A stretch of 64,000 bases of DNA, taken from assembly GCF_026262505.1 (NCBI RefSeq), contig NC_067206.1, forward strand, positions 38,639,660 through 38,703,659. The letters are read 5' to 3'. Shown piece by piece: positions 12,978 to 38,855 of the stretch. The notes beneath the pieces were generated by a model, which saw only the letters and a list, made by a program, of their open reading frames with translations, was not told the DNA's origin and ran no database searches. Made by a program: the position numbers and the translations under genes. The DNA is from Trichomonas vaginalis G3 (lineage: Eukaryota > Parabasalia > Trichomonadida > Trichomonadidae). Numbering within the stretch: position 1 is the stretch's first letter; each line of letters begins with the position of its first letter.

Positions 12978-12979
12978 AA

Positions 12980-16809: not shown

Positions 16810-16883
16810 ATGAACCATTTATTTTTCAAGCTTGACTTCAGATGGCTCAGGTAGCTCTATAAGGTAAATTGTCTTGTCAAATC

Positions 16884-17165: not shown

Positions 17166-17251
17166 TACCACCAACCGAGTCCATTCCAAAGCCAGAAGAA
17201 CCGACAGCCCCAGCACCACAGCAGACTTACTAAGACTAAACTCTTTATTTT

Positions 17252-18127
17252 TCAAGCTTGACTTTTTACAATTTGAACTTTGTTCGCGTAGATGTGAATT
17301 CTGAAAGAAGTATGAGGGTCTTGTATGACTTTGTACTTCTCCCATAGTTCATGTCTGTCAAACTTACCTGCCATGGACTCTTTCATAAGTTCCATGAAAT
17401 CGTCTTCGGACAATCCAGGGAAAAGTATGATATCAGTAAGTATTCTTTTAACATCCTTACTTAAACTCTTTGCTGTCTGTACACAAATGACAACTGAGAT
17501 GTTAAAGTGTCTGAGCTTCTTAAGAATTCGACACATATCTTGTTCTCTGTTCTTTAACAAAGGATGAGAGGCGAAATCATCTAAGATAAGAAGACATCTG
17601 TGAGGGTAAGTCTTCCAATCGTAAGATTGCAATTTCTTCGAAATGTATTCTATCTCTTTCTGTTTGTTTCTGAAGTGTTTCTTCTCTAATATTCTCTGCA
17701 TTTCCTCATTTGGGTCTTTAAACTTCGAGTTTATATACTCATTTATAGCATTGTACTTCAAAACTCTTCTTTGGTACTTCTTTATCCAATCTAACAACTC
17801 AGAGTCTTTTATACATACTAACTTAGACTTTTTTATAATATCTTTGAACGAATTGACGGTTTGGTCAAATTGACCAGAAGTACTACAAATGACTACTAAC
17901 TCATAGAATGGGTTCTTCTCATCTAGTTCTTGTTGTTGTGCAGCCATTTTAAGATAAGTGAAAGTCTTACCCGACCCAGGCGGTGCGATTAGACCTGTTA
18001 TACCATTCTGAGCAAATAAGAACTTGTCATGTATGGGTTTTATCTGAGCATTTTCCAACTTCCTCTTGTTCTTGTTTAAAACATTCTCAAATTTCTTGTC
18101 AATGTCAGCAAACTTTTTTTCTAACAT
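17252..18127 (-). CDS. A32-type DNA-packaging ATPase (FtsK/HerA superfamily)
   Basis: The start at 18127 (MLEKKFADI) is the likely one; an upstream in-frame ATG at 18229 would lie inside the divergent gene. P-loop APPGSGKT (about residues 47-54), Walker B CLLILDDF (about 178-185) and the distal motif VVICVQTAKSL are in family order. The 291-residue length is normal for packaging ATPases of Polintons and virophages. It would pump DNA into capsids. Copy 2 has the same gene at the window edge. It diverges from the 151-aa gene across 36 bp. Confidence 0.93.
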   Translation of the reverse strand: MLEKKFADIDKKFENVLNKNKRKLENAQIKPIHDKFLFAQNGITGLIAPPGSGKTFTYLKMAAQQQELDEKNPFYELVVICSTSGQFDQTVNSFKDIIKKSKLVCIKDSELLDWIKKYQRRVLKYNAINEYINSKFKDPNEEMQRILEKKHFRNKQKEIEYISKKLQSYDWKTYPHRCLLILDDFASHPLLKNREQDMCRILKKLRHFNISVVICVQTAKSLSKDVKRILTDIILFPGLSEDDFMELMKESMAGKFDRHELWEKYKVIQDPHTSFRIHIYANKVQIVKSQA

Positions 18128-18163
18128 ATTTTTAGAAAAATTAAAATTTTTATCTTTTTGAAA

Positions 18164-18619
18164 ATGTCTAGCGATTTCGCTATCTATATTCGAGACAAGC
18201 TTTTTGACTCTAAAACTTCTGTCGACCATAAAATCTTACATAGTGTAAACAAGAAAGGTGAATTTGTTCTAAAGTTCTGTTTCTGGGAATATGACAAGAA
18301 CCATAAAACATTAGGCAGAGAAGTCTTTAAGTTTGTCAATGACAGACTTGTTGACAGAGATGACGCCGATTGGAAAGATGAAGTCCAACAAAAGTTCTTA
18401 GAATGCAAAGAAGACACATGCGCTGTTCTTGAAGATGAAATAGGAAACAGAATAGAAGAGCTATTAAAGGACAAAGAACTTTTACAAAAATATGGTTCTG
18501 AGAAGTTTGACATAACTCCACCAGAGAAGAAGAAGAAGAGAGAGAAGAAAGAAAAGAAAGTAGAAGAAGAGAAGAAAGAGCCAGAGCCAGAGCCAGAGAA
18601 AAAGAAATTTGACATGTAA
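18164..18619 (+). CDS. small charged Maverick protein (151 aa)
   Basis: ATG at 18164 (MSSDFAIYIRDKLF). The N-terminal ~100 residues look globular (FVLKFCFWEYDKNHK, VFKFVNDRLVD). The tail from about residue 120 is a Lys/Glu/Pro low-complexity run (EKKKKREKKEKK, EPEPEPEKK) ending KFDM. It converges on the next minus gene with 16 bp between stops. Family not recognised; a DNA- or protein-binding accessory is possible. Confidence 0.75.
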   Translation: MSSDFAIYIRDKLFDSKTSVDHKILHSVNKKGEFVLKFCFWEYDKNHKTLGREVFKFVNDRLVDRDDADWKDEVQQKFLECKEDTCAVLEDEIGNRIEELLKDKELLQKYGSEKFDITPPEKKKKREKKEKKVEEEKKEPEPEPEKKKFDM

Positions 18620-18635
18620 AAATAAAATTTTATTT

Positions 18636-19055
18636 TTAGAACATTTCTGGGTCAATGTCAATGTTCTCTTCCTCTTTAGGAGCAAACACTGGCTTAGACT
18701 CTAAAATCTTTTTACCCAATTTACCTTGAACTTCAACTATCTTAGACTCATAATATTCATAGTCGTCTGCTTTCTTTGGTTCATAAGGTATAACAAGTTT
18801 GTATGCTTTGCCTTCTTTAAGGTTTGAAAACCTTCTGTCAAAATTTTCTTTGACTGCTAACAAACCTTCTATGTCTAAGTCTTCAAATTTCGCACCATTT
18901 TTAGTCACAATAGCAAACTTAACTGGTTCGATGTTCCAAACTTTGCTGAATGAAGACTTTTCAAAATGGTAGAAGTAAACATTCAAATATATGAATGGGT
19001 CTAGTTCTTCTTTAAGTCCTGACATGTACTTGTTGACTGAGATGAATTTCATCAT
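18636..19055 (-). CDS. conserved Maverick protein (139 aa)
   Basis: Intact and probably translated from 19055 (MMKFISVNKYMSG). Alternating hydrophobic/charged strands (VWNIEPVKFAIVTKNG, AYKLVIPYEP, KIVEVQGKLG) suggest a beta-rich, possibly OB-like fold. An acidic tail (EEENIDIDPEMF) resembles those of single-strand DNA-binding proteins. Its position beside the helicase gene fits a replication accessory. This assignment is a hypothesis from composition only. Confidence 0.6.
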   Translation of the reverse strand: MMKFISVNKYMSGLKEELDPFIYLNVYFYHFEKSSFSKVWNIEPVKFAIVTKNGAKFEDLDIEGLLAVKENFDRRFSNLKEGKAYKLVIPYEPKKADDYEYYESKIVEVQGKLGKKILESKPVFAPKEEENIDIDPEMF

Positions 19056-19093
19056 CTTTTCTATCGGATAAAAAAATATTTTTTTTTTAAAAT

Positions 19094-20325
19094 TTACTCA
19101 GAAAAATTTTTCTTTGTATATACGCCGTTCTGAACATCTAAAAGATTTTTGACATTTGCCAAGAATGTACGTTTAGAAGCTGCCATATAACCATACTCTT
19201 GACAATATTGTTTATATGAATCGTACAATGACCTTTCATCTAAACACTCAAAGTCAGTTTCATCTATGAACAGTTCATAAACACTCTTGTTTGCTTCTAA
19301 CAATGTTTGTCTCTCTTCGGTATGTGGAATTTGTCTTGGATTGAACTTTGAAATATCTAATGTCATGAAATATGAGAACAAGTGGTTGTAAAAGTTAGGT
19401 GTCAAAGTTTCTGCTAAGTCGTCAAAATATTCTGTATCTTGCATATGAGCTTCTGACGTTCTGACAACTACATATCTTCTGTCAGAACTTTCTAACTTCA
19501 TCGGAACGGCGTTGTTTGAAACCATGATGAAATTTGCAACATTTTCACAAACTCTTTGGTCTTTATATTTTCTTTCAACAACTCCAACTTTGTCTGTTAT
19601 AAGACTCTTCAAAGCATCTGAGTTTAAAACCTTTGTTGTATCTATACTTTGAAGTTCGTTACATACTATAAGTTTCATATTCTCTATTGAAGAGTTAAAT
19701 TTACCGCAGATGTTTTCTAAGTTTGTCATATTAGGGTTCGAATAGCCCTCTAACAGTTTGCATAAGATATCTGTAAAGAAAGTGTTCTTACCTGTTCCTT
19801 GTTTTCCAATTATAATGAGAGCAGTTTCATTTTTAGCACTTGGATGTTGTAAGATGTTTGCAAACCAACATAAGATATACTCATAGACTCTTTCGTTTCC
19901 ATTGCATATAATTTCTTTGACATGGTCTAACCAAGCTTCTATAACATTTTCTTTCCATTCTACTTGTTCGTATTTATATCCAGTGAAGATAGAAGAAGTT
20001 TGGAGAAGGTGTATAGAACTTTATACCGAACTGAAAAATCTTCTAACTTTGACAATAAGATATCCCAAGCATCTAACATCTTCATTCCAACTTGTACAAC
20101 TTTTATTTTCTTAAGTTTCTGTCTACATTCTTGTTCTGAAACTATTGTTGCTCTTGGTTTGTTAAAGACAACATCCCATTCTTTCATGACATAACATTCT
20201 GGGGCAGAGTCAACATAAATGACTAAACGTTTCAAATTCTCGACTGCTTTGTTATAGTCTCGAAATGGACACATATTTCTGAATGCTTGGAAGTCATAAA
20301 AATCTGAAACATCTATTCTGTACAT
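19094..20325 (-). pseudogene. superfamily 3 helicase / D5-like ATPase, one frameshift
   Basis: The 5' part (20325 to about 19990) and 3' part are in different frames, with a single break near 19985. The 3' part reads past its first Met and holds the P-loop IIIGKQGTGKNTFFTDIL (about 19760-19810) and an SF3 motif C-like stretch ANFIMVSNNAVPM. A helical C-terminal region follows (LYDSYKQYCQEYGY). SF3 helicases unwind DNA at replication forks in viruses and Polinton-like viruses. No archaeo-eukaryotic primase motif was seen. Confidence 0.85.
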
Positions 20326-20354: not shown

Positions 20355-21043
20355 TTATTCTTGACTTTGTTGTTGCATTTGTTCCATTTGTTGCATTTGT
20401 TGTTCTTGAGCTATTTGTTGTTGAAGTTGTTCTTGTAGTACAATACTTTCACCAGTTGCATCTTCCAATTCGAAACTTTCTGCCGTCATTGACAAATACA
20501 TAGGACATAAAAGTTTACAGGAACAAAGTTTGCGTCAACTAAGGTTAAGTTTATGTTTGCTAAAGTGTTTGAGTTTACTAAAGCTGAAAACTCTGCATTC
20601 GAATGAACAATAGGCAAACCAGCAGAGAAAGTGTTGTTTATACGCATGAGTATCTTTTGGTCATAGTAGTTTCTGTCGACATTCGAATAGCACTTTGAAC
20701 CTAAGTTTGAAACAATATATAAAATAGGTGTACTTAAAGTCAATGGAACAGACAAACCTTGTATGACACCTTTTCCTGTTATAGGAAACTGTTGGTAGTA
20801 AAAACCAGATATAAGTTTTGTATTATAGCTCATATCGTTTATACTAAACTCAGTCGGACATCCAAACATAATGAAACCTGCTCTAGTTGCAGCACATGTT
20901 ACATCCGTCCTTAAAGTATTAAATAAGTCAACAAAACCTGTTGGTGGTATATCTGAGTAAGTATCTTCAAAGAAGTATTTTTTACCATTCACAACAACAA
21001 AGTCTTCTGGTGTCAAAAGAGCAAAACAGGCTTTAGTCGTCAT
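20355..21043 (-). pseudogene. penton-like minor capsid protein candidate, frameshift near 3' end
   Basis: Starts MTTKACFALLTPEDFVVVNG. About 185 residues of strand-rich sequence (GKGVIQGLSVPLTLSTPIL, ANINLTLVDANFVP) have the look and size of a single jelly-roll minor capsid protein. The frame then shifts near 20490 into a Gln-rich tail (QQQIAQEQQMQQM). It lies between helicase and capsid genes, as in Polintons where penton and capsid genes neighbour. The penton assignment is inference from position, size and composition. Confidence 0.6.
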
Positions 21044-22066: not shown

Positions 22067-23717
22067 TTACTGACCTGCTGCCAAAATCTGCTCGATGGAA
22101 GCTGTCGTTATACCAATCTGAGGAGCCCCAGCAGGTTTCATCGAACGAATCTTCAAAAGAGCATCTTCCGTGAAAAGTGCTATTGGTTTTGTAAACTTCT
22201 TTGCTTTCAATTCATCTGGACCGTCTCTGTCACCAGTATATTGTATTTGAACTGTACCAACAGTTGAAATACCACCACCATAAAGTCTTCTGAGTCAGCA
22301 AATGGAATGCCAAGCAAAAGTTTTGAAACGGTCCTCCATTTGTATATTGAGTTTTTTGACCTCCTGTATGAGTCCATACTTTCACATATGGCAATAATAG
22401 AACTTTGCATTTCAGGGTTAATGGTTGTTGTGAAGTTGTTGTTAAAGTTCATAGCATCTAATGTCAAGTTGTATGACCTCATATCCTCAACTGTAGAATA
22501 TTCTTCTCTTGGATAGTATTGCCATCTATGTTTATATGGTATTTAATACCAGGGTTGTAGAAGCAAGAATAGTCATTTATAGTTCGTCTGAACAGTACAA
22601 ACATAGTATCTGCATGTTTCATTGCAGTTGTTAAAGCAATATCTGTTCTTGCACCTGCGGTCAGCACTTTGGTTTCCAACTTCACCTGCAAAGTCTTTGA
22701 CAGATATTTGGTGTATAGGGAACATAAGTGGAACTGCAATATATTTGGCAGCTAAAGCATTTGAAATATCTGGGTCCAACATATAGACTGCAAGTCTGCT
22801 TTCTATTCTCTTGCATTCAAATTTTTCGCATGTGAACTTAACTGGGTCCCAAGCAGTTCCAGCAGCATTGAAATAATAGTTTACTTCAGTGTTGAGGTTT
22901 CCAAAAGTCTAAGTCAACTTTGTCTTTGCAAAATTCGGCGAATGACGTTTGATTTGCTCCCTTTACGTCTGTAAGAGTGAATGGGTCTTGCGTTGGTGCA
23001 ATGACTAAGTTATTTTTGCTTGGAGTAAGTTCGATAGAAATTTTTTCCTGCCCAGTTTGGCAAGTATCTTAAAAACCTGAAGATGAGGAAAGATGACAAA
23101 GGAACTCTAAGTTTCAGTTTTACTTTGGTTACTGCTGCTGCAGTTTGTCCAGAAAGGTTAACATAAACTCCTGGAACGTTAGGGTCAAGTCTTCTTATTT
23201 TCTCAATAGTTGCATATTGGTCTGTTTGTTCTCTAGCTTGTGGTTGTACTGAGTTTCTCAAAGCGAACCATTCATAGTTTGCCCATGTTACTGTTTGAAC
23301 TAAGTCAGAGTTAGAATATATCTTATATCCCATGAAAACTTCTGGAGCATATTGGTATCCGACATAGAAAATTCCATTGCAACCTTTCTTGTCAGACAAC
23401 TTGGCAGAAGGTTTTATTTCAATGTCTTGTTCCACGTATAAGAATGAGTTGTCAATAGAAATAATATGAAACCTGTCGCAAGCAATATCTACTGTTGTTG
23501 AAGAACCTTCTCCAAACTCACCTACGTTTCCATAAGAAACAGCAGTTGTATATTCGTAAGTTCCAGGAACTATTTCTGACCTTCTAATGGCATTGTCGCA
23601 TTCGTTATACCATTCGGAAACATTTCCATTCATAGCATCCAAAACTGTTGGCGTTATATTCTGAGCGGCGTACATTTCATATGAGTAAAAATATAGAATA
23701 GTTGGATTTATATTCAT
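22067..23717 (-). pseudogene. major capsid protein (double jelly-roll type), frameshifted
   Basis: About 550 codons in total. The first 235 are open (MNINPTILYFYSYEMYAAQN); the rest lies in at least four pieces, with breaks near 23000, 22905, 22785, 22665, 22480 and 22200, and ends IEQILAAGQ. Pieces align in order with the intact 546-residue protein of the small element at 30893-32533. Examples are FECKRIESRLAVYMLDP before a P-F/M-x-I-P-x-Q-I segment, and a later NPGIKYHINIDG. Polinton capsid genes are of this length. The capsid call is inference from length, order and neighbours. Confidence 0.75.
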
Positions 23718-23740: not shown

Positions 23741-25124
23741 TTACTTTCTTCCTGACTGAGTTTTTAATCTCTCTTTTTCCTTCATTGCCTCTGCTTGAAG
23801 TTGTTGCATCTTTGCATTATGTTCATCTAGTATGTTGCAAATTTCCCATGTCCTTTTTGCCTTTGGCTCTGGTCGCCCATCTCAGGTAACCTATATCCTA
23901 GAAAGAGTTTGTCATAGTCTGTATTTGAGTCTTCGCGTATTGTTTGCATGACTCTTTCCTGAGTTTCTGGTTCAAGCTCTTCAAACAGTGCCTGTCCATA
24001 TGGAATATTGCTCGTTTCCAAATATATGTTTTGTAGCCATTCTGGTTTTCTTTCCATGTTACCAATAATATCTTTTGTGAATGGGAAAGCTTTTACCCAA
24101 TCTTTCAGTCTTGCGTCGTTTATTTCTGTAGTTGGTTTTATTTTGTCAAGAACATGTTTTTCAATACTAACATTTCATTGGTTACTGTCCATTTGAGTTT
24201 TCTTAAATATTCATCCCTTCTCGATTCATCGCCTGCAAAGTAAGTTTTTATGACATTTTGTAAACTTTCGTTTGCAAGGTCATGTACAATAGGTTCTCTT
24301 CCTTCTCCCTCCCTAACTTTCTTTCTAAACTCTTCACCAAATATACCATCTCTATGGTTCTGTGTAGTTCTTTGAGATAAATGTTCTAGAACGTCAGGTG
24401 TTATATTTCCATCAGCCATGTTCATTTCATACTGGTCCAAAATATCTGCATCTTTCATATCTTTCAATGGCATTAAAGCCGCGCTTAAAATACCAGCTAT
24501 ATCTCGTTCACCATTGACTTCCATTGCGTCTACAACTTCTTGGAATTGTGGTTGTAAGTTTATGAACCACCTATCTGGATTAGCTTATGACCCATCTCAT
24601 TGTAGTTCCATCGTCTGCAGAAACAAAAGTAGGTTTGTTTCCATCTTGGTTAGGTTCTGAATGAACTTTAAACAATGTTTCATTTCTATATGTTTTCTTG
24701 AAATTTAACCTTTTATTTTCACCGAGTTCATCCGAAGATTGAACGTTAAATGCTCGTAAGTAAAAAGGGTTGTTTTATTTGTGTACATTTTCTTTCAGTA
24801 CTTCCATTCTATGCTGAATATTTTTCATCTGGTGTTGGAGTCTTTTATGTCGGCAAACATTTTTCGATATTCTTCTACTATGTCAGCCGAATTTTTTTTA
24901 GACTCTTGGAAATATTCCATATTCTCCGCATACTCTTGTTGAGGGTCAAGATTTTTCGGCTGTTCCAAATCTTCATCTAGTTCTGTGAAGTTTAGTTTCC
25001 AAAGGAGTGACTTGTTCGTTCCTTCAGGCTCTTCTAGCTGTTGTTGCTGAACTATTTCTTCCATCTGGTTGTATCTGAACTTCTTCCTGTGGAGTTTCTT
25101 GTACCTCATCTGCTGGCATTTCAT
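23741..25124 (-). pseudogene. conserved Maverick virion-type protein, frameshifted
   Basis: About 460 codons split into pieces at 25124-24825, 24524-24138, 24057-23827 and a tail ending TQSGRK. The pieces are Gln/Glu-rich and helical (PQQEYAENMEYFQESKK; EFRKKVREGEGREP; LEPETQERVMQTI). The start overlaps the upstream 593-codon gene by ATGA, so the pair may have been co-expressed. Unknown family; its position between capsid and tail-end genes suggests a structural role. Confidence 0.65.
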
Positions 25125-26902
25125 ATATTCCGAGACCTTTCAACAATTTCCCTATCTACGTCATCCGCATTCATAAGCTTTTGTTCTTTCGTTCCGTCTC
25201 TATTTTTTACGCGTTTCATGACGAAAGTTGAATTGTCATTTAGCTCTGACATCAAATATCTCGGAGTAAATTCATCCATGTCATTTGGATGATATGCTAT
25301 TAAATCATATCCCTTAGCGAGCTTGTATTTTCCAGGTTTGAGATTATATCCGTTTTGGTGCTGAGCCATAAAGCTAAATAGGTTCGGGTCAGTATTTCCA
25401 TCCTTGAACTTTCTAATAGCTTCTTTATATCTGTCACTAAAGTCAACAGTATCTGGGAAACCACACTCTTCTTTAAGCATTTTTAAGAATTCTTGGTTTC
25501 CTTGTTCTCTACTTCTTTTATGTCCTTGCTCTGTTTGTGGTTGTTGTTGTGCAGGGTTTTGAACTGTTGGTTGCTGTGCTGGTTGTTGTGTTGGTTGTTG
25601 TGCTGGTTGTTGTGTTGGTTGTTGTTGTTGCGTTGGTTTTGGTGCATGCCTGTGTCTGTGTCCATGTGACGATGTAAATGTTTTAGGTAGTCCTGGTGCA
25701 GGTGCTTCTCTTGGAGGGTTTGGTGGTATATAAGTTCCACCAGCTGGCACATATGTTCCATCTGCAGCGTAATGTCCTACCTGACTTTTCGTTTTTAAGA
25801 AAGCATTTACTAGGTCTGTTTTGGTCTGTTGTAACTCTTTTTCTTGACTTTCCACAACAGTTGCTCTAACGGCGTCATAGGCACTTTGAACTGCCTGTCT
25901 CGTTGCTGCATCTGTTATTTTCGTCATATTTTGTGCTACTTCTCTTAACTCTTTGTCGAAACCTTCAGACTTCAGTTTCTTTCCAGATGAGAAGTCGTTC
26001 ACTTGTTTCACCTTACTATGAAGAGCTTCGAAAGCGTTCTTAAAGTCAGCATTTGTTAAAGCTTCATTTGAACTATCTTCATCCGCTTGTATTTTTGTCC
26101 TTATTGACCCTATGAGTTGGGCTGCTTTAGCGTTGGCTTGGGCATCTAACCAGTCATTGTTGGCTTTTATATATTCTGCGCTTTTCATTGCCTTTTGCAT
26201 AGCCGCGTCGTTATTTTTACTTTCTTGTGCTAAGTTTTCATACTGTACGGTTTGGTTTTGCAACTGTAAAAGTTTTTCTGCCTTTACATTTGCTTCAACT
26301 TCTTTTTTATACTCATCGCTATCCATATATGTCTTCAGGGCTTTTTGTTTTATCTCTTCATCTTTCAGTATTTTATATTGAGTAGTATGGTTTTTCAAAT
26401 TTATGACATCTTGTTCCATTTTTGCTACTTCTGCTGCTTTTTCTGACACTTTTTTCGCATATTCCTCTGTACTTAGTTCTTTCAGTTGTTCTTCTTTCTT
26501 CTTTTTCTCTACGTTTAACTCATTGAGTTTCTTTGTGTGTCTGTCATATTCTAGTTTCTTTTCGTTTTCACTTATTTGCTTCTGTATGTCTATGTTTGAC
26601 TTTTTGACATCTGTTATTTGATTTTTGAGTGAACTCAAATTCATTTGACTTTGAGGGTTATAGGCTGTTCCGTCTGCAGCTCCACCATAGCCTGCCATTT
26701 TCGCTAAAAGTGCCGCTCTTAAACCTCCACTCTGTGCACCAAGAACTCGGTTTAAAAGCATAGGATTGCTTGACATTTGTTGCAACATAGTGGGGTCATT
26801 CAGCATTTGTTGTTGCAACTGTTGTTGTGGTGTCAGTTTTACTATTGGATGTTTCAATGCTCTCTTCCTCTTACGTATATTCTTACGTAGCTTACGTGGC
26901 AT
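25121..26902 (-). CDS. large coiled-coil / Pro-Gln-rich Maverick protein (593 aa)
   Basis: Intact in this otherwise decayed element. Order: basic start (PRKLRKNIRKRKRALK), Gln/Met-rich segment, a Gly/Ala stretch (GGLRAALLAKMAGYGGAADG), then a long coiled coil from about residue 95 to 370. Next come a Pro-rich linker, a His-rich spot (SSHGHRHRHAPK), PTQQPAQQ repeats and a globular C-terminal domain (about 475-593). It lies next to the right TIR. A core or tegument-like DNA-binding structural protein is possible from the basic N-terminus; I recognise no family. Confidence 0.8.
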   Translation of the reverse strand: MPRKLRKNIRKRKRALKHPIVKLTPQQQLQQQMLNDPTMLQQMSSNPMLLNRVLGAQSGGLRAALLAKMAGYGGAADGTAYNPQSQMNLSSLKNQITDVKKSNIDIQKQISENEKKLEYDRHTKKLNELNVEKKKKEEQLKELSTEEYAKKVSEKAAEVAKMEQDVINLKNHTTQYKILKDEEIKQKALKTYMDSDEYKKEVEANVKAEKLLQLQNQTVQYENLAQESKNNDAAMQKAMKSAEYIKANNDWLDAQANAKAAQLIGSIRTKIQADEDSSNEALTNADFKNAFEALHSKVKQVNDFSSGKKLKSEGFDKELREVAQNMTKITDAATRQAVQSAYDAVRATVVESQEKELQQTKTDLVNAFLKTKSQVGHYAADGTYVPAGGTYIPPNPPREAPAPGLPKTFTSSHGHRHRHAPKPTQQQQPTQQPAQQPTQQPAQQPTVQNPAQQQPQTEQGHKRSREQGNQEFLKMLKEECGFPDTVDFSDRYKEAIRKFKDGNTDPNLFSFMAQHQNGYNLKPGKYKLAKGYDLIAYHPNDMDEFTPRYLMSELNDNSTFVMKRVKNRDGTKEQKLMNADDVDREIVERSRNI

Positions 26903-28639: not shown

Positions 28640-29260
28640 TTTATAATTTTGATTTTAAAGTGAGTTTAAACTGTATTATATAAAGCCAAGTATAAGTTTC
28701 GGCATTGTAAGGATGGCTTATTATATAAAATAAGTCGATAATAATCTCATTTTGTGTTTAGAGAGTTTTTTTAGGAAGATTTTTATGTGAGAATTAGTAT
28801 TTGGAAGCGTTGGTAGACTTGACTGAGAGAATGCCAAAAAGTATGCACTTACTTTCTGTCATTCTCTCAATTTTTTTGACTTCAGAGTTTTTGTCTCAAT
28901 TTTCAAAAAAAATGTCATATCTATATAATGATTTATATGTACTTATAAGTGTTAATATGGTCTGCAATTTGATTATTCAATTGCTCATAAATCATTGTGA
29001 TTTCTTCAGAATCCCAGAGGTCATGAGCCTTTACTATAGACGCAGATATAGGTTCTTCACCCCATTGCTGAGTTTTAAAAAGGAACATCGACGAAATGCT
29101 GGCTTTACGGCAATTAACAGTAAGTTTAAGTACATAGGAATTATTCGAAAGATTCAGCATAGAATAAAAAGTAAATTTCTGTAGAACTTATATGAGATTG
29201 AAAATAGAAATGATGTAATAAAATAATGATAAATATGAAAAGAAAGAGAATAGAATAAAT
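28640..29260. other. intergenic; no convincing gene
   Basis: AT-rich sequence between cutC and the minisatellite. A 75-codon minus-strand frame (28933-29160, with DLWDSEEITMIYEQLNNQIA) might be a gene fragment but has no recognisable family. Confidence 0.45.
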
Positions 29261-29590
29261 CAATGATAAATATGAAACGAAAGAGAATAAGTTTCATATT
29301 AACATCAGAACCATGCTCAGTTAAGAATTTGACGATTTCTATTGAATTCGCTTTGATCGCAATACTAAGAGGGCTTTCATTAATATTGAGAGAATTTCAT
29401 AAAACATTGATAAGTATTCATAGAAAAAGAATTCTATAAAACAATGATAAATATGAAAAGAAAGAAAATTTCATAAAATAATGATTAATATAAAAAGAAA
29501 GAGAACCTCATAAAACAATGATTAATGTAAAAAGAAAGAGAACTTTATAAAACAACAATTGATATGAAAAGAAAGAGATTTGTATACAAT
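29201..29590 (-). pseudogene. ankyrin-gene fragment embedded in minisatellite (left of insertion)
   Basis: On the minus strand 29296-29396 encodes one ankyrin repeat (NESPLSIAIKANSIEIVKFL, then TEHGSDVN), flanked by 37-bp minisatellite units. 29261-29590 is nearly identical to 37608-37937, with one difference noticed. The small virus-like element is inserted immediately after 29590. Confidence 0.75.
29585..29590. repeat. target-site duplication of small element, left (TACAAT)
   Basis: TACAAT before AGTAGTATATG. It matches 35685-35690, and the undisturbed site GTATACAATAATGATAAAT is present at 36571 and 37932. Confidence 0.95.
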
Positions 29591-29749
29591 AGTAGTATAT
29601 GTTGAAGGGTTGTGTGACTTTTTTTGTAAACGTAAGAATTCATACAATATTGAACGATTTTGTATCATTTTTTTTAACATATGAAGTAAAAAATGTATGA
29701 TTCTTACGGTTTTTATTCTTACGTTTTTGAATAAATCAAGATTTAAAAA
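29591..29749. repeat. left TIR of small element (159 bp)
   Basis: Exact reverse complement of 35526-35684 by eye, including both homopolymer runs. No similarity to the Maverick TIRs. Confidence 0.95.
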
Positions 29750-29926
29750 ATTTTCAAAATTGTAAGACATTTACACTCAACCCATACATAATGAAATAAA
29801 AAATGTGACAACATGACATTTTGACAACATCATGGGTTATTCGATAATTAATTATTTTTGAATAACTGAATGGAATCAATGAAGTCATAATCAAAGACCT
29901 CATAAACGAGAAAAAGAAATTAGAAA

Positions 29927-30286
29927 CTAATGATTATTTGAATTTATGAAATCAATTATTTGATTCATTCTTTCTTCAATCTCTTCTATTCTTTTTGTTA
30001 AATCATCAATTTTCATTAATGAGGTGATTCTTGATTGAGGAATAGATTTCAAACTAATCACTCCTTTTATTTTTGAAATTTTGAATCCATCAACTTTAAA
30101 CATTTTATTCAATTTACATGTTGTCAATTCTTCAAATAATTTTTTATTATTAGCATAATAGTCATTAAATTCTTCAACAGATGAAAAAATTTTTGTTTCA
30201 GTAATTGGTTTAACAACGTTTATTTTTTGTTGAACATTTTCACTTTCTTCCTCCTCTGTTTCATTTATTTTTAAAATCGGTTTCAT
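29927..30286 (-). CDS. 119-aa protein of small element
   Basis: Acidic start (NETEEEESENVQ), a middle FSSVEEFNDYYANNKKLFEE, then a basic patch (KLNKMFKVDGFKISKIKG). A C-terminal helix with heptad pattern (IDDLTKRIEEIEERMNQIID) probably forms a coiled coil. It lies next to the left TIR and reads outward. It could be a DNA-binding regulator, but no family is recognised. Confidence 0.75.
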   Translation of the reverse strand: MKPILKINETEEEESENVQQKINVVKPITETKIFSSVEEFNDYYANNKKLFEELTTCKLNKMFKVDGFKISKIKGVISLKSIPQSRITSLMKIDDLTKRIEEIEERMNQIIDFINSNNH

Positions 30287-30352
30287 TTATCATTAAATAA
30301 AAATTAGAATATAAGTGATGAAATATATTTTTTAATTAATATTAAATCAGAA

Positions 30353-30589
30353 ATGGCGGCAGGATTCTTTAAAAAATTATGGGATGGAATTAAGAAAGCT
30401 GCGGGTTGGGTTTATAAAAAGGTTATTAAACCTGTTGCAAACTTTTTGGCACCAGTAGCGAAAACGGCAGGAACTATCATAGGTGGAGTATTAGGTACTA
30501 AAGTAGGTAATCCAGCGATGGGAGCACAAGCAGGTAACGCAATTGGTGGAATAGCTGAAGGAATACTTAATAAAATAGGAGGTAGATAG
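30353..30589 (+). CDS. amphipathic Gly/Ala-rich protein (78 aa)
   Basis: Starts MAAGFFKKLWDGIKKAAGWV: a basic amphipathic helix of the membrane-lytic or minor capsid peptide kind. A Gly/Ala-rich hydrophobic stretch follows (GTIIGGVLGTKVGNPAMGAQ). Its first 11 residues are identical to those of the neighbouring 71-aa protein on the other strand. The Maverick proteins at 5378 and 54369 have a similar composition. A membrane-penetration role is inference. Confidence 0.8.
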   Translation: MAAGFFKKLWDGIKKAAGWVYKKVIKPVANFLAPVAKTAGTIIGGVLGTKVGNPAMGAQAGNAIGGIAEGILNKIGGR

Positions 30590-30607
30590 TGGAAAAATAA
30601 ATTATTT

Positions 30608-30823
30608 TTATCTTAGTATCGGTTGTAGTCTTTGATAAACTTTTTCTCCTTTATTTAATATTTCTCTTATTGGGGCGGCTTTTGGCGTTATTGATTCAGC
30701 AACGTCACTAATTGCTTCTTTATTCTTAAATATCCAATTTGCTCCTTTCTTCATTGTTTCCCAAACTTTATGCGCTCCTCTTTTTACTTTATCCCATAAT
30801 TTCTTAAAGAATCCTGCAGCCAT
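30608..30823 (-). CDS. amphipathic basic protein (71 aa), sister of the 78-aa protein
   Basis: Starts MAAGFFKKLWDKVKRGAHKV. It shares the first 11 residues with the convergent neighbour at 30353-30589, then diverges (WIFKNKEAISDVAESITPK). The stops are 18 bp apart. A duplicated start with different bodies suggests a conserved N-terminal signal such as a membrane- or capsid-binding helix. Confidence 0.78.
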   Translation of the reverse strand: MAAGFFKKLWDKVKRGAHKVWETMKKGANWIFKNKEAISDVAESITPKAAPIREILNKGEKVYQRLQPILR

Positions 30824-30892
30824 AGTTGATTATTTCATTAAAATTAAAAATTCATTTTCATCTTTTAATTTTGATTTTTTATTTATTAATAA

Positions 30893-32533
30893 ATGACGAC
30901 TAACTATTTGGTGCCAAACACTAAACCGATTAATGGAAATGTGTTTCATTCATTTGAAAAGATAAATGAAATATTCGCAAAGAATGACGGTAGAAGATAT
31001 TATAGAGAACTTGAAAGTTCATGCTATGACTCTGATGCTCCATATTTTGATGATAAACAAACTCATTTAAGAATTACAAATCCGGCTCATGATGTGAACC
31101 AATTAGGTGACACATATATTAAACGCAAAGTTAAAGCAACTCTAGTTTCAAATAAAGCTTTCACATGTGATGCCGCTTTTAAATGCATGCGTTTATTCGT
31201 TGGTTACAAATCATCAAATCAAAGCTTTAAACAATTAGAAGTAGAAACTGAAAGAGGCGATGCCGGTTATCTTCAAATGGATTGCGCCCGTGAATCTTTC
31301 GCATTTGCAACATATAAACCAAAATCAGAAAGGAAAGTTAAAAAGTTTGTTCATTCGTTATATAATAATGTTCAAAAATATGATAACTCAGTATGTGGTA
31401 AATATATTGACCCTTCAGAAGTTTTCAAGAACGCAAATGAAGAAGTTGATGTCACTTTTGATATGATTATTCCGGTAAATGATTTGTTAGCATTTCAGGC
31501 GTTCGATGATTATCCTAAATCATTTGGTGAAATCATTCTTAAATATTATGCTTTCAGGGATACTTTAGTATTTTGTCAGGTTGACCCGTTAAGAGTTGCT
31601 GATTTACAAAATTACGTTTATGAAAAGATAACTGATGGAAATTATGAAAAGATTATGAATCATGTTTATAAATATGATCGCAAATTCCAACAAATCGGAC
31701 TTTCTGCCAAATTAATTACAAGCTTAGCCGCTACATCTGCTGACGCAAAAGTTGATAACGTTATTATTTCATGCACAAAGATGGAAGTTTTAGAGGATAA
31801 ATGCATTACACCAGGATACGGTTTAATTGAAGAATCAGTTAAAGCAATACCACGTTTATTCAGTAAGGAAGATCCATTCATGATTCCAGCTCAACATATT
31901 GACGTTCGTTCACTAAATGGAGGTTGCATCACTCCTGAAGGTATCAGTTCAGATTTCTCATACGCTCTTCATAATGTTACAGATGTTGTGTTAGCATTTC
32001 CGAAGAATGCAATGCAAAGAACAGTTTTAGAAAATCCAATGCTTCGAGGTCTTCAGGTCACTATAGATTCCAGAAACTTCCCCGATCAAGCGATGACCAC
32101 AGTGGGTGACATATTCTTTACACGTATGCTTCAAGCTTCTGATTTAGATGGAGTGAATGAATGCACAGAAGAATACGAGGACTCATTAACTAGACCACTG
32201 AATGCAGATGATGGCACGCCATTAGCTAGAACATGGAAAGACCAAACTTCATTCTTATGCACTATTCCAGTTCAACGTGATGGAGCGGGTATATTCTTTG
32301 ATGGATTAGAAACTTTCAACTCACAAGTTACAGTACAAGTGAAAGCTTATCCAATCATTCAGGGTGAAAATGACACTTACTGTTCAAAGGTGACAAATCC
32401 TCCTCAGGTTTGGTTTACTAGGACTACGTATTGGACATGGACACCGGACGAAGGTTTGAAATATCATCCAACAGGTACACCACCACAGTATAGAAGTTCA
32501 TATGATGAAATATTGATGAATAGAAATGTTTAA
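30893..32533 (+). CDS. major capsid protein candidate (546 aa, double jelly-roll type)
   Basis: 546 residues, the usual size of Polinton/PLV capsid proteins, with strand-rich sequence and no membrane helix. Landmarks align in order with the Maverick capsid at 22067-23717: VIISCTKMEVLEDKCITPGYG, then PFMIPAQHIDV, then NPMLRGLQVTIDSRNFPDQ, then VGDIFFTRMLQASD. The packaging ATPase gene follows after 24 bp. Expected to form the icosahedral shell. A structure prediction showing two jelly rolls would settle it. Confidence 0.78.
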   Translation: MTTNYLVPNTKPINGNVFHSFEKINEIFAKNDGRRYYRELESSCYDSDAPYFDDKQTHLRITNPAHDVNQLGDTYIKRKVKATLVSNKAFTCDAAFKCMRLFVGYKSSNQSFKQLEVETERGDAGYLQMDCARESFAFATYKPKSERKVKKFVHSLYNNVQKYDNSVCGKYIDPSEVFKNANEEVDVTFDMIIPVNDLLAFQAFDDYPKSFGEIILKYYAFRDTLVFCQVDPLRVADLQNYVYEKITDGNYEKIMNHVYKYDRKFQQIGLSAKLITSLAATSADAKVDNVIISCTKMEVLEDKCITPGYGLIEESVKAIPRLFSKEDPFMIPAQHIDVRSLNGGCITPEGISSDFSYALHNVTDVVLAFPKNAMQRTVLENPMLRGLQVTIDSRNFPDQAMTTVGDIFFTRMLQASDLDGVNECTEEYEDSLTRPLNADDGTPLARTWKDQTSFLCTIPVQRDGAGIFFDGLETFNSQVTVQVKAYPIIQGENDTYCSKVTNPPQVWFTRTTYWTWTPDEGLKYHPTGTPPQYRSSYDEILMNRNV

Positions 32534-32557
32534 AATTATAAATTTATTTTTGATTAA

Positions 32558-33385
32558 ATGGATTTAAATTCATCCACCCCTTATGAAGAATTAGCGGGAG
32601 TATATAATACATACGTAGATGATATGATTAATGAAGCATTGAGTGATAATAGAAATGCTCTATCTAAGGAAAAATTAATGAAAATTCCATATTCTGAATG
32701 TTACTTAAATTCAATCACTGCAGCAATTGGTAAACAGAATAAAGGTAAAACATTAACGATATTAAAACAAATTATCATTATTGCTAACACTTCCCCCTAT
32801 TCACATGTGTTAATTTATATCAACCGTTCAGGTTCACCTTCAGATGATACATTTGAATCTTTAAAGCATTTAATCAAAATTCCAATTATTTATTTATCAC
32901 AAGAAGAAGCAGAAGATTATTTAAAAAACTTTTTAATGTATAAAGAATTATATAATACAATCAAGAAGCAGGGATTAGAGGATAAAATTATTGATAAACA
33001 AAGGGATGAATTATTTGAAACACTTTCTATTTCAAATTTTGATAGAGAATTTTTGCATTCACTCATTTTTCTAGATGATGCAGTGAAATCAAAACTAATA
33101 ACTAATGAGAAATCATATTTTAATCAATTATTAACTCAATGCCGACACATTCAGTGTTCATTCTTCATGGCTGTTCAATACTTCAAAGCATTAAGCACAA
33201 ACATTAAATCAAATCTATCAACACTTTTCATTTTCAGTGGGTTTAGTCGTCAACAGTTGAACGTTATGCTTTATCAAGTGAATTTACCAATGAGCATTAA
33301 TGAACTTTACACACAATATCAGCAATTAGGTGAACATGGAAAAATAATAGTTGATTTAAATAAAGGAAGTGTTAAATTTGATTAA
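32558..33385 (+). CDS. A32-like packaging ATPase (275 aa)
   Basis: P-loop GKQNKGKT at residues 58-65 (G-x4-GKT) and Walker B LIFLDD at 168-173. The distal segment QCSFFMAVQYFKALSTNIKS then LFIFSGFSRQQLNVML parallels ISVVICVQTAKSLSKDVKR and the ILFPGLSEDDFMEL that follows it in the Maverick ATPase. The length fits the family. It would translocate DNA into the capsid. Capsid and ATPase genes lie side by side, as in many Polinton-like viruses. Confidence 0.88.
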   Translation: MDLNSSTPYEELAGVYNTYVDDMINEALSDNRNALSKEKLMKIPYSECYLNSITAAIGKQNKGKTLTILKQIIIIANTSPYSHVLIYINRSGSPSDDTFESLKHLIKIPIIYLSQEEAEDYLKNFLMYKELYNTIKKQGLEDKIIDKQRDELFETLSISNFDREFLHSLIFLDDAVKSKLITNEKSYFNQLLTQCRHIQCSFFMAVQYFKALSTNIKSNLSTLFIFSGFSRQQLNVMLYQVNLPMSINELYTQYQQLGEHGKIIVDLNKGSVKFD

Positions 33386-33425
33386 CTTTTTATAAATAAT
33401 TTTTATTTTTTATTTATAATTAAAC

Positions 33426-34316
33426 ATGACAGAAATTGCAAATCTTCTACAGGTTCCATTAAAACAAGGGACAAACAAAAAGGGTGCATATAATAGAACA
33501 ATGAAAGTTCCAGACGGAATGAAAGAATTAGTCCACATTGTTGCCGGTCTTCAAAAGGATGTTAAACAAATGAGAAACGTTTTAACATTACCAGAAGCTC
33601 AAGCATATGCCAAACGTCATGGACCAAATTGGGAAGCACACGAAGCAGACATTACAGGTCCAAATGGAAAACCTGATGGAATAAATGAAGTCTTTGTTAC
33701 TGATGGTCAAGGAAATATTAAAGTCATAAATGGTTATAAATTAACTATAACTGATTATCCTAAACGTAAAGCATATAATGAACATTATCCTATGAAATTT
33801 GATGAAAATGGAAAAGCTGTTAAACAATACATTGGAGAAGGTGAAAATGGTCCAATTAATTCATACCGTCATAATCCATATTCTTATTTCAATGACGAAT
33901 TAAATGCTATTGAAGAGGGACCGGATGGATTACCACGATATGTTAATCAGTTTGATGGTCAATATGCAAATATTAGACCTGAAATTCCAGCTAAGAAATT
34001 CTTTAAAGTTGCTTTATTCGATCCAGTGTTCAATGAACAGAAAGAAGCAATGAAAGCAGAATTTAAACCAATTCAAGTGGCAAGAATTTCTTCATCTTCA
34101 CTTTCAGAAGCGTTCAAGGAATTGATAAAGAAACCACTTTATTCTCAGCAAGGTTATAACTTTGATTTAATTAAAGAAAGTGATAGACGTAAATTAGAAA
34201 AATCAGATGGTTTTAAGAATGCATGTAATGAAATGATTAAAGATATTGTAAATGATAAAATAAGACTGGAAGTTTTTGTTCATTTATGTAAGAATAAAAA
34301 ATTAAAAAATAAATAA
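33426..34316 (+). CDS. virion-type protein of small element (296 aa)
   Basis: A central segment (about residues 85-125) reads [17 protein letters not shown], then [17 protein letters not shown]. From memory it resembles a short domain with the pattern DxDGDG...VNGY...SDYPxR in proteins of several Polinton-like and large DNA viruses. The rest is helical and basic. The gene follows the ATPase by 40 bp. It may be a minor capsid or core protein; a penton role cannot be shown from sequence. Confidence 0.68.
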
Positions 34317-34332
34317 AAATAAAGTTTATTTT

Positions 34333-35469
34333 TTAAAGCCCATAAAATGAATTAAGAACACATAAATTTTTATCATCTGCGACGTGACGAATACATTTTA
34401 ATTTACTCAAGAATGCGTACCCGGATACATTAAATCTAATTCCTGTCTTATTTAATTTCACAACTTTGAAAAGGAATGTATGAATAGCTATAAAATGATG
34501 AGATGATGTTTTATGGGTTGCTTCCATTTTTTCTGAAATAAATGAATAAATATAATGCTTATACGTTTTCATATCTTTTATATTCTTAATAACGAATGGT
34601 ATAGCCCTTTCAACTTCGTCTTCCTTCGGTGCTGTTCTTTCATATGAAACATTATTGGTATCTTCAATAATGAAACCACAATCGCATAAAATTTTATATG
34701 TACCAATTGTTTCTTTTGATATTTTATCTAACAAATCAAAAACTTTATCAACACCTGTACATTTATTTAAATAATAATTTGTGTAAATATCATGGTCTTC
34801 TTTCTTAATCGTATTTGTTGCATATGTTACATTTTTCAGTGCTTTTTTGAATTTTTCAGAATCAAGAGGAGGTGAAAGTAATATACATGGATAATCTCCA
34901 TCGTCAATAAACTGAAGCTTATGTTTATGAATAAATTTTGTGCCTTCTTCTGAAAGTGTTTCGTCAATATCACCATCTAATAAATTTTTAGTAGATTCCA
35001 AAAAGTAATTTTTATATCTTTCCTCATGTGATTTTTGAACTTCTGATTCTGAAGCTGGGATATTCATTAAACCCTCTACTTCATTCTCAGCATTTCTCAA
35101 TTCACTAATTCTTTCATCTATTTCATTTCTTAATTGTTCCAATTTCTCAATCTCATCGTTATAATATTCATCTTGTTTAATTTTTTCTTCAAAATATTCA
35201 GGAGGTGTTTCAAGGCTCTCTGAGCCCAGGTCCTCTGGACCATAAAGAGGAATATTCTCCTGTTTTTCAACTTTTTTGGGATATAAATATCTCATTATAG
35301 CCTTTTTAGTAATTGGTCCGTTATATTTAAATTCATTCAACAATCTGGAAAACTCTTTCACATTCTGCATATATGTTGGATAAGAACCGTCTCCAAAATT
35401 TTCTAAAATATTTTCTAATTCTGAATTAGTGAACTTTAAAGATTTCAATGAATTAGTTGTTATACTCAT
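34333..35469 (-). CDS. uncharacterised protein of small element (378 aa)
   Basis: Convergent with the 296-aa gene (16 bp between stops). The N-terminal 75 residues look like a small helical domain. A Glu-rich coiled coil covers about 105-145. The C-terminal half is globular, with HHFIAIHTFLFKVV and, near the end, DDKNLCVLNSF. His and Cys in that order invite a cysteine-protease idea, but the usual adenain/Ulp1 motifs are not evident. It is the only gene large enough to hold a replication or maturation enzyme here. Confidence 0.7.
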   Translation of the reverse strand: MSITTNSLKSLKFTNSELENILENFGDGSYPTYMQNVKEFSRLLNEFKYNGPITKKAIMRYLYPKKVEKQENIPLYGPEDLGSESLETPPEYFEEKIKQDEYYNDEIEKLEQLRNEIDERISELRNAENEVEGLMNIPASESEVQKSHEERYKNYFLESTKNLLDGDIDETLSEEGTKFIHKHKLQFIDDGDYPCILLSPPLDSEKFKKALKNVTYATNTIKKEDHDIYTNYYLNKCTGVDKVFDLLDKISKETIGTYKILCDCGFIIEDTNNVSYERTAPKEDEVERAIPFVIKNIKDMKTYKHYIYSFISEKMEATHKTSSHHFIAIHTFLFKVVKLNKTGIRFNVSGYAFLSKLKCIRHVADDKNLCVLNSFYGL

Positions 35470-35525
35470 TTATCATTAAATAAAAAATAAATTTAACTTA
35501 GTTTTAATTTTACGTAAGAAGTCAA

Positions 35526-35684
35526 TTTTTAAATCTTGATTTATTCAAAAACGTAAGAATAAAAACCGTAAGAATCATACATTTTTTACTTCATATGTTA
35601 AAAAAAATGATACAAAATCGTTCAATATTGTATGAATTCTTACGTTTACAAAAAAAGTCACACAACCCTTCAACATATACTACT
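35526..35684. repeat. right TIR of small element (159 bp)
   Basis: Reverse complement of 29591-29749; ends CCTTCAACATATACTACT directly before the TACAAT duplication. Confidence 0.95.
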
Positions 35685-35690
35685 TACAAT
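35685..35690. repeat. target-site duplication of small element, right (TACAAT)
   Basis: Matches 29585-29590. The sequence after it (AATGATAAATATGAAAAG) continues exactly as in the undisturbed copies at 36577 and 37938. Confidence 0.95.
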
Positions 35691-36279
35691 AATGATAAAT
35701 ATGAAAAGAAAGAGAATGAAATAAAACAATTATAAATATGAAAAGAAATAGAATGCCATAAAACAACGATAAATATGAAAAGGAAGAGAATGCCATAAAA
35801 CAAAGATAAATATGAAAAGAAAGAGAATGATATAAAACAATGATAAATATGAAAAGAAAGAGAATAGAATAAAACAATGGTAAATATGAAAAGAAATAGA
35901 ATGCCATAAAGCAATTATAAATATGAAAAGAAAGAGAACTTCATAAAGCAACGACTAATTAGAAAAGAAATAGAATTTCATAAAATAATGATAAATATGA
36001 AAAGAAAGAGAATAGAATAAAACAACGATTAATATGAAAAAAAAAATAGAATGCCATAAAGCAATTATAAATATGAAAAGAAAGAGAATAGAATAAAACA
36101 ATGATAAATATGAAAAGAAAGAGAATTTCATACAATAATGATAAATATGAAAAGAAAGAGAATTCTATAAAACAATGATAAATCTGAAAAGAGAAAGAAT
36201 TATATAAAACAATGATATATATGTAACAAAAGAGAATTTTATAAAACAATGATATATATGAAAGGAAAGAGAATAAGTT

Positions 36280-36395
36280 TCATATTAACATCAGAACCAT
36301 GTTCAATTAACAATTGGATAATTTCTATTGAATTTGCTTTGATTGCAATACTAAGAGGGCTTTCATTAATATTGAGAGAATTTCATAAAACATTG
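36280..36395 (-). pseudogene. ankyrin-repeat fragment within minisatellite
   Basis: Minus strand reads LSIAIKANSIEI-type ankyrin sequence, with differences from the 29296 and 37637 copies (for example ttgctttgattgc versus tcgctttgatcgc). Identical blocks at 36935-37055 and 37637-37745 show repeated duplication of a once continuous ankyrin gene. Confidence 0.7.
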
Positions 36396-36934
36396 ATAAG
36401 TATTCATAGAAAAAGAATTCTATAAAACAATGATAAATATGAAAAGAAAGAAAATTTCATAAAATAATGATTAATATAAAAAGAAAGAGAACCTCATAAA
36501 ACAATGATTAATGTAAAAAGAAAGAGAACTCTATAAAACAACAATTGATATGAAAAGAAAGAGATTTGTATACAATAATGATAAATATGAAAAGAAAGAG
36601 AATGAAATAAAACAATTATAAATATGAAAAGAAATAGAATGCCATAAAATAATGATAAATATGAAAAGAAATAGAATGCCATAAAACAACGATAAATATG
36701 AAAAAAATTAGAACAATATAAAAGAATTATAAATATGACAAGAAAGAGAATAGTATAAATCAATGATAAATATGAAAAGAAAGAGAATTTCATACAATAA
36801 TGATAAATATGAAAAGAAAGAGAATTCTATAAAACAATGATAAATCTGAAAAGAGAAAGAATTATATAAAACAATGATATATATGTAACAAAAGAGAATT
36901 TTATAAAACAATGATATATATGAAAGGAAAGAGA

Positions 36935-37055
36935 ATAAGTTTCATATTAACATCAGAACCATGTTCAATTAACAATTGGATAATTTCTATTGAATTTGCT
37001 TTGATTGCAATACTAAGAGGGCTTTCATTAATATTGAGAGAATTTCATAAAGCAT
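36935..37055 (-). pseudogene. ankyrin-repeat fragment within minisatellite
   Basis: Second copy of the fragment at 36280-36395, identical over about 100 bp and followed by the same 37-bp units. Confidence 0.7.
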
Positions 37056-37636
37056 TGATAAATTTGAAAAAAAAAGAATTATATACAACAATGATAAATA
37101 TGAAAAGAAAAAGAATTATATAAAGCAAAGATAAATATGAAAATAGGGATAATGTGATAAAACAATGATAAATGTGTTAAGAAATAAAATTTTATTAAAC
37201 AATAATCAACATGAAAGGAAAAAGAATTATATAAAACAATGATTAATATGAAAAGAAAGAGAATTGTATTAAAAATTGTTAAATATGAAAATATAGATAG
37301 TGTAATAAAAAAGTGGTAAATATGAAAAGAAAGAGATTTCTATACAATAATGATAAATATGAAAAGAAAGAGAATTTCATACAATAATGATAAATATGAA
37401 AAGAAAGAGAATTCTATAAAACAATGATAAATCTGAAAAGAAAGAGAATTTCATACAATAATGATAAATATGAAAAGAAAGAGAATAGAATAAAACAACG
37501 ATTAATATGAAAAAAAAATAGAATGCCATAAAGCAATTATAAATATGAAAAGAAAGAGAATAGAATAAAACAATGATAAATACGAAAGGAAATAGAATTC
37601 TAGAAAACAATGATAAATATGAAACGAAAGAGAATA

Positions 37637-37745
37637 AGTTTCATATTAACATCAGAACCATGCTCAGTTAAGAATTTGACGATTTCTATTGAATTCGCTT
37701 TGATCGCAATACTAAGAGGGCTTTCATTAATATTGAGAGAATTTC
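37637..37745 (-). pseudogene. ankyrin-repeat fragment within minisatellite
   Basis: Matches the fragment at 29296-29396 almost exactly. The following sequence to 37937 represents the empty insertion site of the small element. Confidence 0.75.
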
Positions 37746-38067
37746 ATAAAACATTGATAAGTATTCATAGAAAAAGAATTCTATAAAACAATGATAAATA
37801 TGAAAAGAAAGAAAATTTCATAAAATAATGATTAATATAAAAAGAAAGAGAACCTCATAAAACAATGATTAATGTAAAAAGAAAGAGAACTCTATAAAAC
37901 AACAATTGATATGAAAAGAAAGAGATTTGTATACAATAATGATAAATATGAAAAGAAAGAGAATGAAATAAAACAATTATAAATATGAAAAGAAATAGAA
38001 TGCCATAAAACAACGATAAATATGAAAAGGAAGAGAATGCCATAAAACAATGATAATAATGAAAATA

Positions 38068-38855
38068 AAAAGATTATAAAGTTTGTTAATATCTTCTCCA
38101 TTAGTAATTAAATAAGATGCAACATCAAAATTTCCGAAATGCATACATTCGGTTATTGAATTAGGAAATTGTCCTAAATTTGATTTAAGGTACTCAGCAA
38201 TTTCATAGTTTCTATAATCCAATGCTGTATTAATCATGTCACCAAATGATTTACCTTCTTCTATCATTTGCATAAAAATGCTATTATTTCCGCCTTGAAC
38301 AGCATATTTTTCGGAGTTATCTGTGTATTTAGCTCCTAAATTTTTCAAGTAATTGAAACACAATTCTGATCCGTATTTAATTGCGCAGTCAAGTGGTGTG
38401 ATATCTTTAATTCTTTTATTAATATCAAGATTTGGGAATTGAGATTTAAGTTCATCAACTTTATCACATAAAATATAGTATAATGGAGATTCTATTGGAT
38501 ATTCAAATTCGGAGCATTTGCAATATAATAACATTGCTAATTTCTCATTTTCTGGTTTGATGATGCATGAGAATTCGTTTAATATCTTTTGGTAAAGTTC
38601 TGATAATAATTTAATATCTTTAACACGAATTTGTGAAATAACATCAATCAAATAAAGTGACATTTGGATAGATATTTTTTTGTTTGTAATGAATTCTATA
38701 ATTTGCGAAGATACTTGTAAAATATTATTGGAATTGACACTCCAAATCATTTTTGATACTCGATTAGGGTATTCAAATACTTCAGTTGGCTTAATGCTAC
38801 CAAAATCACATCCAATTTCATTTTTAGATTGCTCAGAGTTTAACATGCTTTCCAA
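38068..38855 (-). CDS. ankyrin-type protein, 5' part (DUF3447-like), tail replaced by minisatellite
   Basis: Starts MESMLNSEQSKNEIGCDFGS. About 262 residues match the trichomonad ankyrin family with DUF3447-like repeats (ITPLDCAIKYGSELCFNYLK, NLGAKYTDNSEKYAVQGG, ALDYRNYEIAEYLKSNLG, MHFGNFDVASYLITNGEDIN). The frame then runs into 37-bp repeats and stops at 37977, so the C-terminal ankyrin repeats are lost or scattered. A TGTCACTTTTTT motif lies about 35 bp upstream (38886-38897). Probably a truncated or dead gene of a very large surface/cytoplasmic family. Confidence 0.78.

Follow-up and report, generated by a model that had tools for sequence, protein, structure and literature searches.

A 6.1-kb element of Trichomonas vaginalis as a highly probable internal deletion derivative of a multicopy Maverick/Polinton family

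Introduction

The Maverick/Polinton elements of Trichomonas vaginalis have an average size of 15-20 kb (PMC4021607) and form genomic blocks that may be canonical, fused, nested or fragmentary (PMC7845603), so that truncated copies as such are already known. For vertebrate Mavericks, sizes varying by ~10% around 17 kb were interpreted as a constraint (PMC8097293). Polinton capsids have been described in a work that leaves Trichomonas unnamed in its main text (PMC4028283), and according to PMC10120064 no capsid gene had previously been found in T. vaginalis Mavericks, the DUF4106 family, which numbers 2,224 copies in one assembly and 4,841 in another, being proposed there as this double-jelly-roll gene. 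Here, we consider a 6.1-kb element residing in a stretch of T. vaginalis DNA of 64,000 nt (the whole of it is hereafter called the window), which belongs to contig C4 of an assembly comprising 180.85 Mb in 86 contigs. A preliminary description, made from the letters of the sequence, proposed it to be a satellite or virophage-like virus; the 6.1-kb element is not described in the accessible parts of the Maverick literature (PMC10120064, PMC6431247, PMC4021607, PMC7845603, PMC8097293, PMC4028283), and deleted copies may be described by Kapitonov and Jurka (2006) and Pritham (2007). The analysis presented below identifies the element with high probability as a non-autonomous copy, deleted in its interior, from a Maverick/Polinton family whose members are numerous in the same host and measure 16-22 kb. 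By class it is a deletion derivative and neither an autonomous Maverick nor a new small virus: relative to a 19.5-kb member of the family ~12.9 kb are gone, with both terminal inverted repeats (TIRs) and the genes for the predicted capsid protein, the putative ATPase and a 378-aa protein being kept.

Results

The 19,469-bp family copy located at C3:12156436-12175904 served as the reference for collinearity. Positions 1-213 and 352-4682 of the 6.1-kb element correspond to reference positions 1-213 and 802-5107, and positions 4683-6094 to 18018-19469, with 97.1-99.1% identity; the same two collinear blocks are seen against a second long copy, in contig C1. Both ends are therefore collinear with a longer family member and the interior is absent, as expected of a deletion derivative, and the join cuts a conserved ~301-aa gene at residue ~283. 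On its left side the join lies within the 3′ part of this gene, and on its right side ~10 bp into a frame on the reverse strand (reference 16124-18028). This frame is located upstream of the PolB domain and gives only weak zinc-ribbon and HNH matches; no base is shared at the breakpoint relative to the C3 reference. Among 133 matches listed for the resulting 296-aa frame only the element's own extends beyond residue 285, most of them sitting in ~301-aa frames, and therefore the last ~13 residues of this frame are a product of the join. All DNA searches addressed one assembly and scored the best 40 candidates only. Within this scope, a 201-bp query spanning the junction found its full-length match only at its own site, the other 39 of the best 40 (out of 1,214 candidates) starting at query base 93, which is window position 34272. 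Absent from the element is also reference segment 214-801 with its DUF4108 gene (E 3.7e-69), but L007, L008, L013 and L014, which are shorter copies described below, likewise resume at reference 802, so this gap is not peculiar to the 6.1-kb element.

In long copies the lost interval holds genes for a primase-helicase (DUF5906, E 2.4e-20; VapE-like, 1.1e-9), a KilA-N protein (4.6e-23), a Gp10_C-type protein (8.2e-28) and a putative PolB (DNA_pol_B_2, E 6.4e-6 in L012 with 25.7 bits vs a cut-off of 25.8, and 0.0019 in L001). An integrase-like protein, also encoded in this interval of a long copy, has no Pfam match of its own; BLASTP aligned 114 of its columns (E 1e-6) with a protein encoded at window 53395-54351, which in turn matches rve (1.4e-7, 32.1 bits vs a cut-off of 32.6). 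A phage-type Gp10_C domain occurs in Maverick proteins at window 52064-53392 (+) and at L002:4821-6125 (-), the former additionally possessing two stretches that match the phage-tail-repeat family PTR.

The TIRs of the element, 159 nt long and 100% complementary, go far beyond chance and end in AGTAGTAT; they are bordered by a 6-bp target site duplication (TSD), TACAAT. If the flanks are joined with one TSD copy, the repeats follow each other across the insertion site with a spacing of 37 bp, and with two copies the spacing is 43 bp. The array phase is thus restored with one copy, and the 6.1-kb element is therefore a real and clean insertion into a 37-bp tandem array. Such arrays occupy window positions 29217-38073, and from 36375 on a 111-bp period is scored as well.

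Long TIRs and a 6-bp TSD are traits of Mavericks/Polintons, and the TIR is common in the genome: for a 160-nt TIR query the best 40 of 1,146 candidates are all 100% identical, 37 over 160 nt (own copy included) and 3 over 159 nt, while a 40-nt end pattern with at most 3 mismatches occurs at 355 sites. Pairing of neighboring + and - sites located less than 60 kb apart, which engaged 190 of the 355 sites, gave 71 pairs: 43 of 16.0-22.0 kb, 2 of 15.0 and 15.2 kb, 15 exceeding 23 kb, which at a guess are nested or composite elements, and 11 below 14 kb (3003, 4392, 6094, 6212, 6278, 6644, 9177, 10120, 11658, 13215 and 13896 bp, 6094 bp being the 6.1-kb element). Perfect 6-bp TSD repeats border all 22 pairs that were checked, and the duplications are clean on 7/7 pairs shorter than 10 kb, the 6.1-kb element included. 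Perfect 159-bp TIRs and the 6-bp duplication of the preliminary description thus hold, the array phase agreeing with the latter, and so does its link to Mavericks, since the TIR is identical to that of longer elements carrying polymerase- and integrase-type genes. The long copies were read in pieces (L001-L003, L004-L006 and L011-L012, of which L004-L006 make up the C3 reference) and have many broken frames. At five loci (L024, L025, L026, L028 and L029) the ~301-aa gene is 88.6-89.9% identical to window 33426-34271, and at eight other loci 95.5-98.0%; the capsid gene adjoining it at the five loci retains 98.8-99.2% identity with the 6.1-kb element. Two DNA types of one gene beside a near-uniform other suggest exchange between subfamilies.

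Several other short copies have both TIRs and joins of their own. L007 (C6:4852132-4858409, 6278 bp) retains reference 802-4935 and 18003-19277; L008 (9177 bp) 802-6117 and 16147-19313; L013 (6644 bp) 802-2038 and 14446-18977; and L014 (4392 bp) 802-3601 and the part from 18280 to the end. Filler was found at the joins of L007 (~70 bp, in which by eye a part matches the ~301-aa gene) and L014 (~10 bp). The breakpoints of L007 are 172 and 15 bp away from those of the 6.1-kb element, the right ones being the closer. Its junction and that of L014 are each single (1 of the best 40 scored, from 1,225 and 1,665 candidates, respectively). L015 is rearranged. L009 (C1:13355320-13358322, 3.0 kb, with a 6-bp TSD) is a fold-back structure, in which left-end DNA forms a 771-nt perfect inverted repeat with an 81-nt spacer; it also has a 370-nt TIR and 651 bp lacking a match of at least 60 nt to any compared locus or to the window. 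The joins differ and 3/3 tested junctions are single; deletion derivatives therefore form recurrently, without spread of any of the three tested.

The idea that short copies keep the capsid frame better than long ones was tried and dropped. In the first sample, made up of the first 10 elements that had paired TIRs and whose capsid region was not truncated, the frame was fully open in 3/3 copies below 7 kb and in 0/7 longer ones. It was, however, open in 5/8 additional pairs measuring 20.6-22.0 kb, which were part of a set of 38 at 17-22 kb, bringing the longer copies to 5/15. This sampling left out L013 and L020 (cut by deletions), L009 and L015 (no capsid gene) and L024-L029 (chosen by capsid score).

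Features of the 6.1-kb element are collected in Table 1. All seven open reading frames (ORFs) are open (119, 78, 71, 546, 275, 296 and 378 aa), which partially agrees with the seven intact frames of the preliminary description: judged against the family, the 296-aa frame is not intact, its 3′ end coming from the join. The other gene assignments of that description, namely a capsid-like protein, a P-loop packaging ATPase and no visible replication or integration genes, were upheld. Structure prediction for the 546-aa protein gave a confident model, by which, together with fold matches, it is a double-jelly-roll major capsid protein. The capsid profile had 0 matches among PDB sequences, and scanning of the capsid alignment against viral_contigs returned 26 pattern matches with 0 confirmed. 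The 275-aa protein is identified by its sequence as an A32/FtsK-type packaging ATPase, which is another Maverick trait: its Pox_A32 match in Pfam (E 9.9e-5, 22.4 bits) is just below the cut-off of 22.8, GKQNKGKT and LIFLDD look by eye like Walker A and B motifs, and weak matches to PHROG terminases are present (E 0.0015 and 0.0039); 2 matches among PDB sequences were not significant (best E 0.31). Relatives of its gene amount to 140 scored copies among 4,424 candidates. For the 378-aa protein, whose gene has 109 scored copies among 1,761 candidates, there was no Pfam match above cut-off and no PDB match at E<=0.001, the AlphaFold2 (AF2) model having a predicted local distance difference test score (pLDDT) of 65.9; its family profile produced 3 non-significant matches among PDB sequences (E 0.22-0.34). 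Pfam scanning of the seven ORFs recognized neither a protein-primed PolB or another polymerase nor a retroviral-type integrase. Cysteine protease and penton were not recognized by Pfam either in the element or in the scanned ORFs of long copies, divergent forms being possible. Private substitutions of the element number 5 in the capsid gene (3 synonymous, vs 15 copies), 3 in the ATPase gene (all 3 synonymous, vs 13 copies), 4 in the 301-aa core (2 synonymous, vs 6 copies) and 2 in the 378-aa gene (1 synonymous, vs 19 copies), which is too few for dating or for a selection test. The oppositely oriented 78-aa and 71-aa ORFs, both found in several other family copies, share the start MAAGFFKKLWD (59-nt inverted repeat, 78%).

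Table 1. Positions of the 6.1-kb element, its borders and its predicted genes within the window
Feature	Position	Strand	Basis
37-bp tandem array left of the insertion (resumes on the right from 35691)	29389..29578		
Left TSD copy, TACAAT	29585..29590		Flank comparison
Left TIR, 159 nt	29591..29749	+	Inverted-repeat search
119-aa ORF; occurs in other family copies	29927..30286	-	
78-aa ORF; weak glycine-zipper match, E 0.079	30353..30589	+	
71-aa ORF, N terminus common with the 78-aa ORF (inverted pair)	30608..30823	-	
Predicted major capsid protein, double jelly roll, 546 aa	30893..32533	+	Predicted structure and fold matches
Putative A32-like packaging ATPase, 275 aa	32558..33385	+	Pox_A32 match
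3′-truncated copy of the conserved ~301-aa gene, novel tail after residue ~283	33426..34316	+	Relative search
Deletion junction; ~12.9 kb of the parent (reference 5108-18017) absent	34271..34272		Alignment to long copies
378-aa protein adjoining the right TIR	34333..35469	-	
Right TIR, 159 nt	35526..35684	-	Inverted-repeat search
Right TSD copy, TACAAT	35685..35690		Flank comparison

With respect to the proposed DUF4106 capsids, 22/22 scanned members of the 546-aa capsid family gave no match to DUF4106 (PF13388) and no Pfam match at E<=0.01. A flanking Maverick in the window encodes a DUF4106 protein (25124-26902, - strand, E 3e-217), to which the 546-aa protein had no significant BLASTP match (best E 0.12) and which itself had 0 matches among PDB sequences. 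By eye this DUF4106 protein looks Q-rich and coiled-coil-like rather than beta-rich, despite the family being reported in print as a double-jelly-roll capsid; the ORFs neighboring its gene, 20489-21043 (-) and 23013-23717 (-), might by eye be capsid pieces instead.

Discussion

Two versions of the deletion-derivative explanation differ in timing. According to the first, which appears rather probable, a full-length Maverick resident in the chromosome lost its interior after insertion by ordinary end joining. The joins look like products of this process, having no microhomology (6.1-kb element, relative to the reference) or containing filler (L007 and L014), and the breakpoints are scattered; nothing speaks directly against it, with intact TSD and TIRs being expected under both timings. 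The second version, possible but doubtful, assumes a defective-interfering-like genome, which lost its interior while the viral DNA was being replicated, was copied and packaged by full-length Mavericks, integrated as a 6-kb molecule and is potentially mobile again. It draws on the clean TSDs of the seven shortest pairs, on the existence of several different short forms, on the intact capsid and ATPase genes and TIRs of the 6.1-kb element, and on the long perfect inverted repeat of L009, such as copy-back replication would give. However, this structure fits fold-back repair of a break after insertion equally well, no tested short form was amplified, and the gene sets retained in short copies vary, so that there is no common packaged core. 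A generalized form of the second version, with short TIR-bounded forms repeatedly arising as Mavericks replicate as viruses, being packaged by full-length relatives via shared TIRs and integrating as defective-interfering-like genomes, seems rather improbable; if true, L009 would be a copy-back product and virus-style replication of Mavericks would be visible in the chromosome. Under the deletion-derivative explanation as a whole, the deletion would have been made by end joining, and the entry would have relied on the family's own integrase, acting in cis if the deletion followed insertion, or in trans, from a full-length sister, if the deletion dates from replication. The copy should no longer copy or insert itself, but full-length relatives could still use its TIRs as substrates.

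A separate lineage of small satellites or virophage-like viruses with Mavericks as helper, as the preliminary description had it, would account for virion genes unaccompanied by recognized replication genes and for the TIR common with Mavericks. It is nevertheless very unlikely, being already largely refuted by the single junction: the 6.1-kb form was found once among the best 40 matches in one assembly, so that, as far as this assembly can tell, it fails as a lineage by a criterion of the preliminary description itself; both ends of the 19.5-kb element match it at 97-99% identity, and a conserved gene is cut short at its join. That the assembly collapsed a full-length repeat into a chimera of 6.1 kb is hardly credible at all, since, for all the high repetitiveness of the family, the flanks are in phase with matching TSDs and several different short structures exist.

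Some observations weigh against an internally deleted copy of the long family. Four of the 71 pairs cluster at 6.1-6.6 kb (6094, 6212, 6278 and 6644 bp), and L007 nearly matches the gene content of the 6.1-kb element with close breakpoints, both of which could suggest that such a form is preferred; L007, however, has its ~70-bp filler and joins of its own, and L013 and L015 retain other genes. No parent copy was identified, the nearest compared capsid gene differing at 13/1641 sites, and the search scope given above leaves room for junction copies in other strains. Finally, the assignments of PolB and integrase in long copies are supported but weak by profile, because the former is near or below the cut-off and the latter relies on an rve-bearing relative.

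The tempting interpretation of the element as a minimal capsid-bearing virus is thereby corrected to a deletion product, and the genome turns out to hold TIR-bounded Maverick deletions that form a graded series and have intact target duplications, usable for asking whether such deletions precede or follow insertion. In addition, a confident model is now at hand for the capsid of one T. vaginalis Maverick lineage; this capsid does not match DUF4106 of PMC10120064, although the set of that work may include the 546-aa family.

As regards known systems, TIRs, the 6-bp TSD, capsid and packaging ATPase are common to the 6.1-kb element and T. vaginalis Maverick/Polinton elements (PMC4021607, PMC7845603, PMC10120064), and its long relatives carry putative PolB and integrase-like genes just as these Mavericks do; the difference consists in the loss of ~12.9 kb with PolB, integrase-like and primase-helicase genes. 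Mavirus and Sputnik are virophages, whereas the 6.1-kb element is a Maverick deletion product and not a virophage genome. Non-autonomous transposon copies of the same host, such as those of Tvmar1, likewise keep their ends while the enzyme gene is disabled or lost, making them mobilizable in principle by autonomous relatives (PMC4021607); unlike them, the deleted Maverick shows no amplification and still carries virion genes.

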